From Acidimicrobiales bacterium (GTDB taxonomy: Bacteria > Actinomycetota > Acidimicrobiia > Acidimicrobiales > JAVJTC01), in NCBI GenBank assembly GCA_040219085.1, contig JAVJTC010000014.1, positions 1 through 43,058 of the forward strand: a DNA stretch of 43,058 bases, given 5' to 3'. The notes beneath the pieces are model-generated. The model saw only the letters and a list, made by a program, of their open reading frames with translations. It was not told the DNA's origin and searched no databases. Numbering within the stretch: position 1 is the stretch's first letter; every line of letters begins with the position of its first letter. Shown in pieces: positions 8,330 to 14,112 of this stretch. The translations under genes were made by a program, and so were the position numbers.

Positions 8330-8620
8330 GTGGCACTGACGATCGTTCCGCCGGCGCATGTCGATGCCGACTGGAGGGCAGGCGCGGCGTGTCGAGACAC
8401 CGACCCCGCGTTGTTCTTCCCGGTCGGCACCACCGGACCGGCACTGGACCAGATCGCCGCCGCGAAAGCCGTATGTCTCGCCTGCGAGGCCCGCGAGAAC
8501 TGCCTCGAGTTCGCCCTCAGTACCAACCAGGACTCCGGTGTCTGGGGCGGTGCATCCGAAGAGGAGCGCCGTGCCATGCGGCGCCGTCGCCAGGCCGCGG
8601 CGCGCGCGGCCCGCGCCTGA
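8330..8620 (+). CDS. WhiB-family Fe-S transcription factor
   Basis: 96 residues from the GTG at 8330, preceded by GGAGG. The four cluster-binding cysteines are at 21, 49, 52 and 58 (C...CLAC...C) and the turn GVWGG is at 70-74, followed by a basic C-terminal tail (RRRRQAAARAARA) for DNA contact. WhiB proteins carry an O2/NO-sensitive [4Fe-4S] cluster and bind the sigma factor. The N-terminus resembles the WhiB1/2/4-type short proteins; the exact paralogue cannot be fixed by eye. It converges on the Get3-like ATPase pair, a neighbourhood shared with mycobacterial whiB4-Rv3680-Rv3679. Confidence 0.93.
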   Translation: MALTIVPPAHVDADWRAGAACRDTDPALFFPVGTTGPALDQIAAAKAVCLACEARENCLEFALSTNQDSGVWGGASEEERRAMRRRRQAAARAARA

Positions 8621-8639: not shown

Positions 8640-9806
8640 TCACCACAGGAAGCCACCGATCCGCACCAGTCCGGAGATGTCGGCGACCTCGCCGGCCAGG
8701 ATCGGCACCGCCACCTGGATCGCAGGATCCACGCGTAGCTCGCTGCGCAACTCCGCCTCACGGCTCGCGGGCACGCGGTAGGCGAGAAAGCTCTCCGCCA
8801 GTTCGCACAGCACGCGACTCACGTCGTCGGCGGAATGCGTCGACCGGACCTCGACGCCGATCTCGGTGGCACGTTCGGCGAGCTGACGGGCCGAGGCCTC
8901 GGCCGCCGGATCACGTAGACCGTCGGGGAGGACCCGGTTAAGCACCACCCCGCCCAGGTGAAGTCTGCGCTGCGCGAGAGCGTCGACGAACCAGGAGATC
9001 TCCGACACCGCCGACGATTCGAGAGTGGAGACGACCACGAAGCTCGTCCGACGGGTGCGGATCGTGCGCTGCACCGCCTCGGCCCGTTCCACGAAACCGG
9101 GATACATCGAACGGAAGAGAAGAAAGAACTCGGCGATGTCGCCGAGGAACTGGGTCCCGAGCGTGCGCTCGGCCACGACGCCGAACGACCGTGACGCCGC
9201 CCCGACCAGGCGGGATCGCGCGGGGATCGTGAGCCACCGCAACAGGCGGCTGTCGAAGAACTCGGCCATCCGTTCCGGCGCCTCCAGGAAATCGAGCGCA
9301 TGGCGCGATGGTGGCGTGTCCACGACGATCAGGTCGTACTCGCCGGACTGGTGCAGTTCGTGGAGCCGTTCCATCGCGATGTAGTCGTGGCTGTGGACGA
9401 ACTTCGCCGTGATGTTCGTGTAGAGCGGGTTGGACAGGATCGCGTCCCGGGTCCTGTCGTCGGGAGAATGGCGCGACACCAGCCGGTCCCACGACGCCTT
9501 GGTGTCGAGCATGGCCACCCACAGCTCGCCCCGTGGCTCCGATCCGGTGGCCGCGGCGAGGGCCCCGGGATCCACACGGCGGGGCTCGTCGCCGAACCCG
9601 TCGATGCCGAGGGACTGGGCCAGTCGCCGTGCCGGGTCCACCGTGACGACGAGCACGCGGCCGCCGAGGCGCGTCGCCGCCATCAGCGCGGCCGTGGCCG
9701 CGGTGGTCGTCTTGCCGACCCCACCCGCGCCGCAGACGATCACGATCTCACGCGATGCCAGGAGCCGCTCGAGCACGGACGCCCCCGCGCCGGCCGCCGG
9801 CGTCAC
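8640..9806 (-). CDS. Get3/ArsA-like ATPase, second subunit (BagA/BagB type)
   Basis: 388 residues from the GTG at 9806; the frame is open further upstream but only across the end of the preceding gene. The Walker A is GAGGVGKT (about 26-33), followed by VTVDPARRLAQSLG (switch I) and IVVDTPPSRHALDFL. It belongs to the SIMIBI-class ArsA/Get3 family, resembling one of the mycobacterial pair Rv3679/Rv3680. Notably the signature lysine of the deviant Walker A (GKGG) is replaced by alanine here, whereas its partner keeps it. Possible roles are guided membrane-protein insertion or metalloid handling; the client is unknown. 25 nt after its partner gene. Confidence 0.88.
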   Translation of the reverse strand: MTPAAGAGASVLERLLASREIVIVCGAGGVGKTTTAATAALMAATRLGGRVLVVTVDPARRLAQSLGIDGFGDEPRRVDPGALAAATGSEPRGELWVAMLDTKASWDRLVSRHSPDDRTRDAILSNPLYTNITAKFVHSHDYIAMERLHELHQSGEYDLIVVDTPPSRHALDFLEAPERMAEFFDSRLLRWLTIPARSRLVGAASRSFGVVAERTLGTQFLGDIAEFFLLFRSMYPGFVERAEAVQRTIRTRRTSFVVVSTLESSAVSEISWFVDALAQRRLHLGGVVLNRVLPDGLRDPAAEASARQLAERATEIGVEVRSTHSADDVSRVLCELAESFLAYRVPASREAELRSELRVDPAIQVAVPILAGEVADISGLVRIGGFLW

Positions 9807-9831
9807 GACCGGGACCGACCCACGGCGGCGT

Positions 9832-10782
9832 TCACAGCAACTCCTCGCCCAGGGCCTCGGCGAGTTGGTTGGTGGTGCGACGACCGTGGACCCGCATGAA
9901 GAGCTCGGGCAGGTACACGACGCCGACCCCGGGCTGCAGACCCTCACGCAGCGTCACGAGGTGGCGGGCCCGGCTGCGCCGGAGAGCGACGGCGAGAGCA
10001 GCCGCGTCCAGAACGGAGGTGACCCCCTCCCCCACCGACCCGACGAGAAGCCTGGTGGCGGCCGGTTCGCGCAACTCCTCGAAGATCTCCTCCTCGCCCC
10101 GCCCGAATAGCTCGGGCAGGACACGGTTGACCACAACGGCTGCGAGGTCCACCTCGGTCTCGTCGTCGAGGCGCTCGGCGAGCTCGAGCGTCTCGGTGAC
10201 CGGCATCTCCTCGGGTGTCGCCACGATCACCGTGCCGGTGACAGCCGGGTCCGTGAGCAGCTCGAGCATCCAGTCGGTCTGCTCGCGGACCATGCCGAAA
10301 CGCACCAGCTCCCGAATCGCCGCCGGCGCGGAGAGTTGGCCGACGACGTGTCCGGTCGCGGGAGCGTCGACGACCACGAGGTCGTAGTTGTTCTCGCGGA
10401 CCTCGTACGCGAGCTTTCCCATCGTCAGAACCTCGCGCACGCCGGGCGCCGCGGTCGCGACGAAGTCGAAGACCCGGGCCAATGGTCCGATGCGGGTGAG
10501 CAGCGGTATGCGCACGAAGATGCGTAGGTACTCCTCGAGCGACTTCTCGGTGTCCATCGCCATCGCGAACAGGCCCGGTTGCACCCGGCGCGGTTCGAAG
10601 ACGAGCTCACCGACCTCGAGGTAGCTGGCGAGATCGCCCCGGCCGTCGACATCGCACACGAGGGTTCGCCTGCCCTCGGATGCGGCGAGGGTCGCCAAGG
10701 CTGCAGCAACGCTGGTCTTTCCGACGCCACCCTTTCCGGTGACCACGAGAAGGCGCCGGTCCAACAGCGGCGTCGGGCTCAC
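9832..10782 (-). CDS. Get3/ArsA-like ATPase, first subunit (BagA/BagB type)
   Basis: 316 residues from a GTG. The deviant Walker A GKGGVGKT is at 16-23 with the intersubunit signature lysine Lys17; CDVDGRGDLA provides the switch I acidic residues, and VVVDAPATGHV the switch II/Walker B region. It is shorter than eukaryotic Get3 and lacks an obvious CxxC zinc pair. It probably forms a heteromer with the next protein, as the mycobacterial Rv3679/Rv3680 pair does. Preceded by DUF3107 with a 42 nt gap that holds a small inverted repeat; the ribosome site is weak. Confidence 0.88.
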   Translation of the reverse strand: MSPTPLLDRRLLVVTGKGGVGKTSVAAALATLAASEGRRTLVCDVDGRGDLASYLEVGELVFEPRRVQPGLFAMAMDTEKSLEEYLRIFVRIPLLTRIGPLARVFDFVATAAPGVREVLTMGKLAYEVRENNYDLVVVDAPATGHVVGQLSAPAAIRELVRFGMVREQTDWMLELLTDPAVTGTVIVATPEEMPVTETLELAERLDDETEVDLAAVVVNRVLPELFGRGEEEIFEELREPAATRLLVGSVGEGVTSVLDAAALAVALRRSRARHLVTLREGLQPGVGVVYLPELFMRVHGRRTTNQLAEALGEELL

Positions 10783-10824: not shown

Positions 10825-11061
10825 TCAGGCTGCGCCGAATCCGATCTTCGATGCTCCGTCGTCGATGCGGATCTCGACCCAGCCCACACGTGCCACGGGT
10901 ACCCCGACCTGACGGCCGCGGCGATCCGTCATCCAGATGAGACCCTCCGGGGACGCGAGCGCCTCGTCGAGTTGGGCGCGAACGTCGTCGGCCTTCGCCT
11001 CGTCGGGCATCTCGATGATCAGTTCTTTGCCGGTGTCGGCGGCACCGATACGGACCTCCAC
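10825..11061 (-). CDS. DUF3107 family protein
   Basis: 78 residues from the GTG at 11061, with a GGGAGG ribosome site. The short beta-rich protein (VRIGAADTGKELIIEM ... GVPVARVGWVEI) matches actinobacterial DUF3107, whose role is unknown. It sits inside an mrp - DUF3107 - Get3-pair operon, 20 nt after mrp, so its product may assist iron-sulfur or membrane-protein ATPases. That link is inference from position only. Confidence 0.88.
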   Translation of the reverse strand: MEVRIGAADTGKELIIEMPDEAKADDVRAQLDEALASPEGLIWMTDRRGRQVGVPVARVGWVEIRIDDGASKIGFGAA

Positions 11062-11081: not shown

Positions 11082-12224
11082 TCAGTTGAGAATCTTGAGT
11101 TCGGGGTGATCGCGCCGGGTGGGCGCCAGTTCCTCGTCCACACGCCGGGCGATCTCGGCGAAGATCCCGCCCGCCTCCCCCGAGGGGTCGGTGGCGACGA
11201 GCGGGTTTCCGGTGTCGCTCCCCTCACGCAGGGCGGGAACGAGCGGGATCTTGCCCACGAGGGGGACTCCGAGCCGCTCTGCGAGCGTCTGGCCGCCTCC
11301 CGCGCCGAAGAGTTCGTAGCGGGTGCCGTCGTCGCCGGTGAACCAGGACATGTTCTCGATCACGCCACGGACCTCGAGGCGCACCTTCTCGGCCATCAGA
11401 CCCGCCCGCTGCGCCACGCGCTGCGCGGCGGGCTGGGGGGTCGTCACGACGTACACCTCGGCACGGGGAAGGAACTGCGACAGCGACAGTGAAATGTCAC
11501 CGGTCCCCGGCGGCAGGTCCACGAGCAGGAAGTCCGGATCGTCCCAGTAGACGTCGGTGAGGAACTGCTCGAGCGCCTTGTGAAGCATGGGGCCCCGCCA
11601 GATGACCGGCTGGTCGTCGTCGGCGAAGAAACCCATGGAGATGCAGCGCACACCGTGCACCTCGGGCGGCACCAGCATCTCGTCGATCACGACGGGGGGC
11701 CGGTCGATCCCGAGCATCCGGGGGATCGAGAATCCCCACACGTCGGCGTCGACGATGGCCACGCTCTTTCCGCGGGCGGCGAGAGCGACGGCGAGGTTCG
11801 TCGTGACCGAGGACTTGCCGACACCGCCCTTGCCCGAGGCGATGAGAAGAACCCGCGTGCGGCTCGACGGATCAGCGAAGGGGATCTCACGGCCTTCGGC
11901 ATGACCGTGGGCATGGCCCGAGCCGGCCGTGGCAGACGGGTCGCCGATGAGCTTCTCGCGCAACTCGGCCCGCTCGGCGTCGGTCATCACCGTGTAGTCC
12001 ACCGAGACGTTCGTCACGTCGGCGAGACCCGCGACGGCGCCCGAAACCCGGTTGTCGATCTCAGCGCGCATCGGGCAGCCCTCGATGGTGAGAGCGACGC
12101 GGATAGCGACGTCGCCGCCGGTGATCTCGATCGAGCGCACCATGCCGAGTTCGACGATCGATCGGTGCAGCTCCGGGTCTTCGACTCCTGCCAGCACGTC
12201 GAGTACATCGGCTTCGGTGGGCAT
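11082..12224 (-). CDS. mrp: Mrp/ApbC-type P-loop iron-sulfur carrier ATPase
   Basis: 380 residues. Residues 1-85 form an MIP18/DUF59-type domain (VLDVLAGVEDPELHRSIVELGMV, with Cys50 in EGCP). A His-rich linker (GHAHGHAE, about 103-110) leads to the Mrp/NBP35 ATPase domain with P-loop GKGGVGKS at 131-138, VDADVWGFSIPRMLG and DLPPGTGD. The CxxC pair usually found after ENM in Mrp proteins is missing: the stretch reads ENMSWFTGDDGTRYELFG. Mrp proteins hold or transfer Fe-S clusters. The ATG has GAGGA upstream. It is divergent from a SufR-like regulator and starts the operon leading to the Get3 pair. Confidence 0.93.
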   Translation of the reverse strand: MPTEADVLDVLAGVEDPELHRSIVELGMVRSIEITGGDVAIRVALTIEGCPMRAEIDNRVSGAVAGLADVTNVSVDYTVMTDAERAELREKLIGDPSATAGSGHAHGHAEGREIPFADPSSRTRVLLIASGKGGVGKSSVTTNLAVALAARGKSVAIVDADVWGFSIPRMLGIDRPPVVIDEMLVPPEVHGVRCISMGFFADDDQPVIWRGPMLHKALEQFLTDVYWDDPDFLLVDLPPGTGDISLSLSQFLPRAEVYVVTTPQPAAQRVAQRAGLMAEKVRLEVRGVIENMSWFTGDDGTRYELFGAGGGQTLAERLGVPLVGKIPLVPALREGSDTGNPLVATDPSGEAGGIFAEIARRVDEELAPTRRDHPELKILN

Positions 12225-12260
12225 GGTCCTCCTCAGCGGGTCCGGGTGGGGGCGCGGTCG

Positions 12261-12273
12261 GTAGGCTACCTAC
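12261..12273. promoter_or_regulatory. Inverted repeat GTAGG-CTA-CCTAC over divergent -10 boxes
   Basis: A perfect 5+3+5 inverted repeat lies immediately before the regulator's GTG. It contains TAGGCT on the plus strand (12262-12267; 6 nt before the GTG, leaderless) and TAGCCT on the minus strand (12263-12268; mrp leader of about 32 nt with a GAGGAGGA ribosome site). It could be the operator through which the SufR-like protein controls itself and mrp. Confidence 0.45.
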
Positions 12274-12987
12274 GTGGATCGGGCGCCGCTCACCCCAACG
12301 GAGTTCTCCTCCGCGGTCACTGCGATCACCTCCGCGTTCGGAGATCCGACCCGACGCGACATCTACCTGTTCGCCCACGAGCACCCCGAGGGTGTCACCG
12401 CGGGCGCCACGGCCAGCCAGTTCGAACTCCACCCCAACGTGGCCCGCCACCACCTCGACAAGCTCGCCGCCGGCGGGTACCTGGAGGTCGCGATCGAGCG
12501 GGCCGGCGCGGCCGGGCGGCCGTCGAAGCACTATCGCGCCGCAGAGGCCGGCATCGCTCTGGAGCTGCCGGTCCGCCACCACGACATCCTCATCTCGCTG
12601 CTCGGACGGGCCCTTCAGCTGCTGTCACCGACCCAGGCCGAGGAGCTCGCCGAGGAGGTCGGACGCGAGTACGGCCGGGCGATGGCTGCCACCATCGGAC
12701 CGGACCAGACGGGCCAGCAGTCGTTCCGCTCGGCCCTGCACACCGTGGCCGAGGCCCTGACCGCCCACGGATTCGCCGCCCATGCAGAGAACTCGGCGGG
12801 AGAACTGCGGATCGTCTCTGAGCACTGTCCCTTCGGCGGCGCCGCCGTCGAACACCCGGTCATCTGCGCGGTGGACCGGGGCATGGTCCAGGGGATGCTG
12901 GGAGCCCTCTACGGCGAGGCCTCGGCCGAACAGCGCGTCACCCTCCCCAAGGGCGACGACCACTGCGTCACCACCGTCTCGAACTGA
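12274..12987 (+). CDS. SufR-like Fe-S cluster-sensing transcriptional regulator
   Basis: 237 residues. The N-terminal winged helix (SAFGDPTRRDIYLFAHEHPEGVTA, then PNVARHHLDKLAAGGYLEV and GRPSKHYR) is of the ArsR/SufR type. The C-terminal domain carries three cysteines at 185 (EHCPFG), 198 (VICAVDRG) and 231 (DDHCVT), the arrangement used by SufR to bind a [4Fe-4S] cluster. It should repress Fe-S biogenesis genes when clusters are sufficient. Context supports this: mrp is divergent and a cysteine desulfurase follows 6 nt downstream. The GTG lies 6 nt after TAGGCT, so the mRNA is probably leaderless. Confidence 0.85.
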   Translation: MDRAPLTPTEFSSAVTAITSAFGDPTRRDIYLFAHEHPEGVTAGATASQFELHPNVARHHLDKLAAGGYLEVAIERAGAAGRPSKHYRAAEAGIALELPVRHHDILISLLGRALQLLSPTQAEELAEEVGREYGRAMAATIGPDQTGQQSFRSALHTVAEALTAHGFAAHAENSAGELRIVSEHCPFGGAAVEHPVICAVDRGMVQGMLGALYGEASAEQRVTLPKGDDHCVTTVSN

Positions 12988-12993
12988 GGGGCG

Positions 12994-14112
12994 GTGACCC
13001 GCCACTATCTGGACCACGCGTCCACGTCCCCGCTACGGCCCGAGGTGAAGGCCGCGATGGCGGCCTCACTCGACGAACCCTGGGGTGACCCCGGTCGCGT
13101 CCACACGGAGGGAATGGGCGTGCGGGCCCGACTCGAGGAAGCCCGCGAAACCGTGGCCGCCTTCCTCGGCGCCCGCTCGCGCGAGGTCGTGTTCTGTTCC
13201 GGGGCCACCGAAGCCATCGCCGCAGCAACGTGGGGTGCCCGCGAGCGGGGGCCCGGCGACCACGTGGTCGCCGCCGCCGTCGAACACTCGGCTGTGCGTG
13301 CCGCCACGGAATCGGGCCCCCACACGATCGTCGGCGTGGACCGTGTCGGTCGGGTGGATCCCGCCGACGTCGACGCGGCCATCCGCGACAGCACCGCCCT
13401 GGTCCACATCCAGTGGGGCAACCACGAGGTCGGGACGTTGCAGCCCATGGCCCAGATCGTCGAGATCTGCCGGAGCCGCGGGGTCCTGGTGCACGTCGAC
13501 GCGGCTGCCGCCGCCGGGCGGGCGCCGCTCGACTTCGACGGACTCGGCGCCGACCTGATGTCGATCAGCGGCCACAAGTTCGGCGGCCCGCCGGGGGCGG
13601 GCGTGCTCCTGGTGCGGCGGGGTCTGCGTCTCGGGCCGCTGCTGGGGGGAGGCGACCAGGAACGCGCCCGACGCGCGGGACTCGAGAACGTCCCGGCCAT
13701 CGCCGGGCTGGCTGCTGCATGCGGGGCCCTCGCCGGAGAACGTCTCGGTCGCGAAGCCGCACGCGCCCGTGACCTGACCGACCGCATCGTCGACGCGGTC
13801 GGCGACATCGACGGCGTACGTTCCTATGGCGACACCACTGGGCGCCTACCCCACATCGTGTGTTTCGGGATCGACGACGTCGAACCCCAGGCTGTCGTCC
13901 TCGGACTCGACCGCCGCGGCGTCGCGGTGCACTCGGGCTCGGCATGTTCGTCGGAGTCGCTCGAGCCCTCCGTCGTGCTCGAGGCCATGGGGGTCGATGC
14001 CCACCGTTCACTGAGGGTCAGCGCCGGATGGACCACGACCGACGACGACGCCTACGCGTTCATCGACGCGTTCGGCGCCGTCCTCGCCGAGCTCCGCGCA
14101 CTCAGGTCGTGA
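12994..14112 (+). CDS. Cysteine desulfurase (NifS/IscS-like, class V aminotransferase fold)
   Basis: 372 residues from a GTG with GAGGGG just upstream. PLP-dependent removal of sulfur from cysteine to give alanine and an enzyme persulfide. The start HYLDHASTSPLRPEV, the PLP site SGHKFGGPPGAG (Lys195) and the catalytic loop SGSACSSES (Cys318) identify an IscS/NifS-group enzyme. Downstream of a SufR-like gene it probably supplies sulfur for Fe-S clusters; a role in tRNA thiolation is an alternative. There is no scaffold gene (IscU/SufU) in the window. Confidence 0.93.
   Translation: MTRHYLDHASTSPLRPEVKAAMAASLDEPWGDPGRVHTEGMGVRARLEEARETVAAFLGARSREVVFCSGATEAIAAATWGARERGPGDHVVAAAVEHSAVRAATESGPHTIVGVDRVGRVDPADVDAAIRDSTALVHIQWGNHEVGTLQPMAQIVEICRSRGVLVHVDAAAAAGRAPLDFDGLGADLMSISGHKFGGPPGAGVLLVRRGLRLGPLLGGGDQERARRAGLENVPAIAGLAAACGALAGERLGREAARARDLTDRIVDAVGDIDGVRSYGDTTGRLPHIVCFGIDDVEPQAVVLGLDRRGVAVHSGSACSSESLEPSVVLEAMGVDAHRSLRVSAGWTTTDDDAYAFIDAFGAVLAELRALRS

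Follow-up and report, generated by a model that had tools for sequence, protein, structure and literature searches.

SufR regulators control suf genes and combine a helix-turn-helix (HTH) domain with a C-terminal cysteine cluster. For those of cyanobacteria and Streptomyces avermitilis, the accessible parts of the published accounts describe a 14-bp dyad of 4-6-4 spacing, CAAC-N6-GTTG, that overlaps a -10 element, and regulators that are often autoregulated (PMC8593673, PMC11995493). In Mycobacterium tuberculosis, Rv1460 (SufR) heads the suf operon, has a leaderless mRNA and carries three cysteines (203, 216 and 244), with X12 between the first two (PMC6034842, accessible part). A second kind of system with bearing on the present locus is the bidirectional promoter of Escherichia coli described by Warman, Grainger and colleagues, where one symmetric -10 is shared by both strands (PMC12825309, accessible part). 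In the literature searched, with subscription journals outside its scope, no text was found that joins Acidimicrobi* with SufR, and TAGGAGAAA was absent from the 5 papers listed out of 502 matching ones.

The locus described here lies in an Acidimicrobiales genome, within a 43,058-nucleotide stretch of DNA that was analysed as a whole and is called the window. The genes around it are the following:

12274-12987, plus strand: SufR-like HTH regulator of 237 aa with Cys185, Cys198 and Cys231 (weak match to TIGR02702; HTH_20 and MetOD1 over their Pfam cut-offs)
12994-14112, plus strand: NifS/IscS-type cysteine desulfurase, 6 bp past the regulator (profile matches)
11082-12224, minus strand: mrp, an Mrp/ApbC-type Fe-S carrier with DUF59 and a NUBPL-type P-loop (profile matches; mrp is divergent in relatives as well)
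10826-11061, minus strand: DUF3107 protein (PF11305, 59.1 bits)
9832-10782, minus strand: Get3/ArsA-like ATPase that comes closest to NCBIfam BagA without reaching the cut-off of that model
8640-9947, minus strand: Get3/ArsA-like ATPase that comes closest to NCBIfam BagB, again under the cut-off of the model; its true start probably lies further in

The regulator and the cysteine desulfurase are probably co-transcribed. Convergent with the Get3-like pair, a small plus-strand ORF (8330-8620) shows a C...CxxC...C pattern that resembles a WhiB-type protein.

The initial annotation had called the gene divergent from mrp SufR-like, and this assignment stands. Its N-terminal HTH matches PF12840 over residues 23-71 (35.4 bits against a cut-off of 27), and Cys185-X12-Cys198-X32-Cys231, where a cluster is predicted, is invariant in 30/30 aligned orthologs. 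Like Rv1460, the protein is actinobacterial, has three such cysteines and would be made from a leaderless mRNA (PMC6034842, accessible part). Contrary to cyanobacterial SufR, it falls below the cut-off of TIGR02702, the SufR_cyano equivalog (36.6 against 178.8 bits), whose model is cyanobacterial. Whereas Rv1460 heads the suf operon, the gene studied here has mrp and a cysteine desulfurase as its neighbours, unlike the suf-associated regulators of cyanobacteria and S. avermitilis, and the suf genes of its genome form two units on another contig. A search for solved structures among sequence relatives gave 0 matches.

The reading that we favour, with a probability of about 0.72, is that a symmetric -10 shared by mrp and the regulator gene explains the palindrome between them, and that the SufR-type regulator uses a different operator, MCTAY-N4-RTAGG, which in this genome stands at sufB and sufC and has lost its canonical copy between mrp and the regulator.

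This operator is conserved in the order. A single copy of CCTAY-N4-RTAGG-TANAATA is present in each of 54/298 genomes, against none for the reversed control, and all 30 of these 54 loci that were checked fall between mrp and the regulator; when extended, the pattern gains ATT...AAT as outer arms and a tail AGAAA on the mrp side. With MCTAY-N4-RTAGG-WGAAA, 105 sites turn up, spread over 68/148 genomes of the order (reversed control, 3); of these sites, 56 from relatives and the 2 of this genome were examined. The rows of the relatives lie at sufB (27), sufC (14), sufD (9) and mrp|regulator (9) and nowhere else, these 59 rows being 56 distinct sites with three listed twice, and two places counted on both strands. 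Suf genes were named from PF01458 and a reading of the translations. In the present genome there are exactly two sites, one for each of two suf units that lie about 41 kb apart:

C20:9608-13046: sufB-sufD-Rieske-like unit
C20:9539-9552: operator core of the sufB site C20:9539-9557; the core is 55 bp from the sufB ATG at C20:9608 (pattern scan)
C20:53874-56418: sufC-sufS-sufU unit
C20:56454-56467: operator core of the sufC site C20:56454-56472; the core is 35 bp from the sufC ATG, and sufC leads its unit (pattern scan)

Two more exact copies of the 14-bp core, at C6:29775 and C8:47470, lack the GAAA tail, and their neighbours do not seem to be suf genes.

The site thus has the 4-6-4 spacing described for SufR, but its arms are MCTA/TAGG instead of CAAC/GTTG (PMC8593673, PMC11995493, accessible parts). 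CAAC-N6-GTTG, allowing at most one mismatch, was absent from the four stretches scanned, namely mrp|regulator and the sufB, sufC and paralog promoters. Since the spacing is the same and the arms are others, the change of recognition becomes directly open to study, and the sites would amount to a one-motif suf regulon for a large, mostly uncultured order. That suf genes are the targets of the regulator is indicated by the motif and by co-occurrence. In a phylum-wide set the pattern appears in 9/22 genomes inside the order and in 11/274 outside it, where the reversed control reaches 16/274 (all hand counts); at such a background level, it is not claimed beyond Acidimicrobiales.

Between mrp and the regulator, the operator abuts the -10 of the regulator in 54/110 best-scoring orthologs and in 20/46 of a second set. 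The first figure is a regex count, used since a PWM scan missed canonical sites where the start lies far upstream (L075, L086, L089). The 110 orthologs comprise 30 loci and the next 80 best-scoring ones, and 233/298 genomes had some match, so distant orthologs are under-represented. With the canonical operator missing from about half of these 110 promoters, autoregulation is not general; of 22 relatives whose regulator promoter lacks the canonical site, 13 keep sites elsewhere in the genome (hand count), which shows that losing the autoregulatory site while retaining others is common. The window belongs to the promoters without it: at the canonical place the left arm would read GGGGG and the right arm GTCGG. 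The canonical copy is lost here, and what remains across the start codon is no more than a weak one:

12269-12282, no strand assigned: CCTACGTGGATCGG, that is CCTAC-GTGG-ATCGG, a one-mismatch copy of MCTAY-N4-RTAGG and candidate weak operator (PWM; one-mismatch scan)

The alternative that survives best, tentative as it is, holds that the operator has moved across the shared -10, and that the regulator binds this copy, which would cover the transcription start and GTG of its gene. The copy overlaps the GTG start and, like canonical sites, lies directly against the palindromic -10; its PWM score of 11.28 is exceeded among 286,816 scored positions only by the two suf sites, corresponding to about 8e-4 for a 76-position target, with a PWM whose input sites came from a fixed-pattern search, so that its fixed columns are given by construction. 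On the minus strand, moreover, ATCCACGTAGG is identical to that stretch of the sufB site. Against this, the mismatched arm ATCGG is coding (V-D-R) and common to some orthologs, the outer ATT/AAT arms are missing, 0/109 other best-scoring orthologs score at least 8 away from the canonical place, and the genome has about 70 one-mismatch sites on each strand. We put the chance that the copy is a relocated weak operator and no coincidence at about one in three.

A still bolder and rather doubtful extension would have an Acidimicrobiales SufR with the changed operator MCTA-N6-TAGG tie the scattered suf units to the mrp|sufR pair under one symmetric, partly leaderless bidirectional promoter, the operator having jumped, in the lineage of the window, across the -10 onto the regulator start codon and left a dyad that would be the seam of promoter and operator. 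The order also offers a natural series of operators kept, lost and possibly moved around one symmetric -10, by which the control of bidirectional promoters becomes testable in actinobacteria.

On the favoured reading, with the canonical copy lost, sufB and sufC are the best-supported targets of the regulator in this genome, and autoregulation is unproven. The initial proposal that a SufR-like protein controls both mrp and its own gene agrees with the order at large, where many relatives, such as Aquihabitans sp. G128 (L267), carry the operator in this intergenic space, but it does not agree with the dyad.

Which protein would bind MCTAY-N4-RTAGG is addressed by co-occurrence, taking the regulator as present at about E<1e-30, a threshold set by eye, in tables compiled by hand that ignore kinship among genomes. 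Operator sites occur in 66/104 order genomes with a regulator ortholog and in 2/44 without one. They might instead belong to an Rrf2/IscR-like protein or to a second SufR-like protein encoded on contig C42, with the window gene as a mere target, and two proteins of this genome that pass the Pfam cut-off for Rrf2, the SufR-like paralog beside a second mrp, and the sites in those 2/44 genomes speak for such an assignment. We nevertheless consider it improbable, since the operator tracks the window-type regulator and continues to do so among genomes with an Rrf2 ortholog (65/100 with the regulator against 2/36 without). Nearly every genome has that ortholog, and a site is present in one that lacks it; as the operator binder, Rrf2 is disfavoured by co-occurrence. 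Only 2/18 genomes with just weak, paralog-type matches have sites (hand count). Conservation, regulon content and co-occurrence are computed results, and they make the window gene most likely an Fe-S-cluster SufR-type repressor of Acidimicrobiales with MCTAY-N4-RTAGG as its predicted operator; binding, cluster sensing and repression are what we infer.

The Rrf2/IscR-like protein of this genome (C2:81772-82224, L225) belongs to a family near-universal in the order and may be a second Fe-S regulator. On contig C42 (L003, 155-2133), the second mrp paralog (402 aa) is divergent from the second SufR-like regulator, which is about 30% identical to that of the window and is followed by an IscA-like gene; no MCTAY-N4-RTAGG was seen by eye at this locus.

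The promoter elements between mrp and the regulator are as follows:

12260-12270, no strand assigned: GGTAGGCTACC, the palindrome GGTAG-G-CTACC with a TAnnnTA core at 12262-12268, proposed as a shared bidirectional -10 (conservation; single genomic site)
12262-12267, plus strand: TAGGCT, -10 of the regulator, with a predicted leaderless mRNA start at 12274 (108/110 best orthologs; genome spacing peak)
12263-12268, minus strand: TAGCCT, -10 of mrp, with a predicted TSS at about 12256 and a leader of about 31 nt (sequence; conserved symmetric -10)
12228-12234, minus strand: GAGGAGG, Shine-Dalgarno-like element of mrp (sequence)
12261-12273, no strand assigned: the dyad GTAGG-CTA-CCTAC (GTAGGCTACCTAC), union of the -10 palindrome and the CCTAC half-site

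Leaderless actinobacterial promoters have a TANNNT -10 at 6-8 nt before GTG or ATG. In this genome, the distance from TAnnnT to RTG peaks at 6 and 7 nt (35 and 28 counts, against 4 to 15 at other spacings), an excess that is the mark of leaderless genes. Among the best-scoring orthologs of the regulator, TAnnnT precedes an in-frame start codon by 6-9 nt in 108/110, a permissive count in that the finder accepted spacings of 4-10 nt and kept the best.

In 96 of these 108 leaderless orthologs the box extends to the symmetric TAnnnTA. A divergent mrp (E<1e-5) adjoins 100 of the 108, and TAnnnTA is found in 91 of those 100 and in 56/58 orthologs of the same best-scoring set whose mrp start is estimated within 60 bp; 12 of the 108 miss the seventh-base symmetry, 9 of them with a divergent mrp. 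Among 23 leaderless-like genes sampled in this genome, the window gene is the sole one with A as the seventh base (0/22 for the others), and the controls in relatives gave 1/12 for unassigned genes, 1/10 for sufC and 0/2 for sufD. By these comparisons, the symmetric seventh base is specific to the mrp|regulator locus. The form GGTANNNTACC of the palindrome, which overlaps the dyad, is unique in the genome (33 occurrences when read backwards) and recurs in 51/110 best-scoring ortholog promoters.

A -10 that serves both directions is the simplest reading of the TAnnnTA symmetry, since TAGGCTA at 12262-12268 can be read as a -10 on both strands. Rightward, it would produce a leaderless mRNA from the GTG for the regulator and the cysteine desulfurase; leftward, a short-leader mRNA for mrp and the DUF3107-Get3-like genes, both transcription starts being positions that we infer. 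As in the E. coli promoters of Warman, Grainger and colleagues, one -10 would act for both strands, whereas here the host is a GC-rich actinobacterium, a single locus is conserved across an order, and the start would be leaderless on one side and, in some relatives, apparently on both (PMC12825309, accessible part).

It could be objected that the TAnnnTACC symmetry represents a second half-site of the regulator and no bidirectional promoter, given that GGTANNNTACC, in 51 of the 110, has more symmetry than a -10 requires and that GG/TACC resemble the operator half-sites. In operator-bearing relatives, part of the symmetry (GG, AAT) does coincide with the right arm of the operator, so that the two signals overlap. 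Even so, TAnnnTA is kept in 41/53 other leaderless orthologs of the best-scoring set that have no canonical operator, and an arm of the operator therefore does not fully account for it. Alignment places the mrp start an estimated 8-10 bp from TAnnnTA in six orthologs (L059, L062, L063, L067, L087 and L107), which leaves no room for another mrp -10. We regard this objection as unlikely to hold, and retain the shared symmetric -10.

The dyad itself is present exactly as first drawn: it occupies 12261-12273, overlaps the -10-like hexamers of both directions (TAGGCT at 12262-12267 on the plus strand, TAGCCT at 12268-12263 on the minus strand), adjoins the GTG start at 12274 and is 36 bp from the mrp ATG (12224, other strand). 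Its shape is an ordinary one: the window contains 115 perfect 5-N3-5 inverted repeats, for which reason palindromicity alone was rejected as proof of an operator. Matches with at most two mismatches number 17, against 9.57 expected, a count that 3/100 shuffles reach; as an inverted repeat, the dyad does not exceed chance. The exact dyad has 1 copy in the 3.77-Mb genome (9 when the pattern is read backwards) and none at suf or isc genes, where the initial annotation had suggested looking; being single-copy, it is no dyad shared with suf or isc promoters, and as a repeated operator it was rejected on this copy number and on the near-chance count of mismatched matches. It is found in 1/110 best-scoring ortholog promoters, that of the window, hence in 0/109 others, and in 0/46 further promoters from a second collection, the very absence from orthologous intergenic regions that had been named in advance as counting against it.

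The reading of GTAGG-CTA-CCTAC as a SufR operator that blocks both promoters is thus very unlikely as drawn, for even though both -10 boxes fall under it, its sequence occurs once in the genome and it adjoins a SufR-like gene whose relatives carry an operator in this place, it is missing from those ortholog promoters, the suf genes bear another dyad, and it is one inverted repeat among many of its kind. The half-sites of the conserved operator (CCTA/ACTA-N6-TAGG) face the opposite way to its arms. As a half-site, the right arm CCTAC may still serve, paired with the downstream ATCGG and not with the upstream GTAGG as had been supposed. The dyad is more probably a by-product of the shared symmetric -10, a seam between GGTAGGCTACC and CCTAC as a possible operator half-site.

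In four of the relatives named above (L062, L063, L067 and L087), 10 bp separate the symmetric -10 from the mrp start as estimated, and both divergent genes may be leaderless from that one element. At the C42 pair, TAnnnT boxes stand 6-8 nt before both starts, which suggests that the mrp paralog and its regulator are both leaderless.
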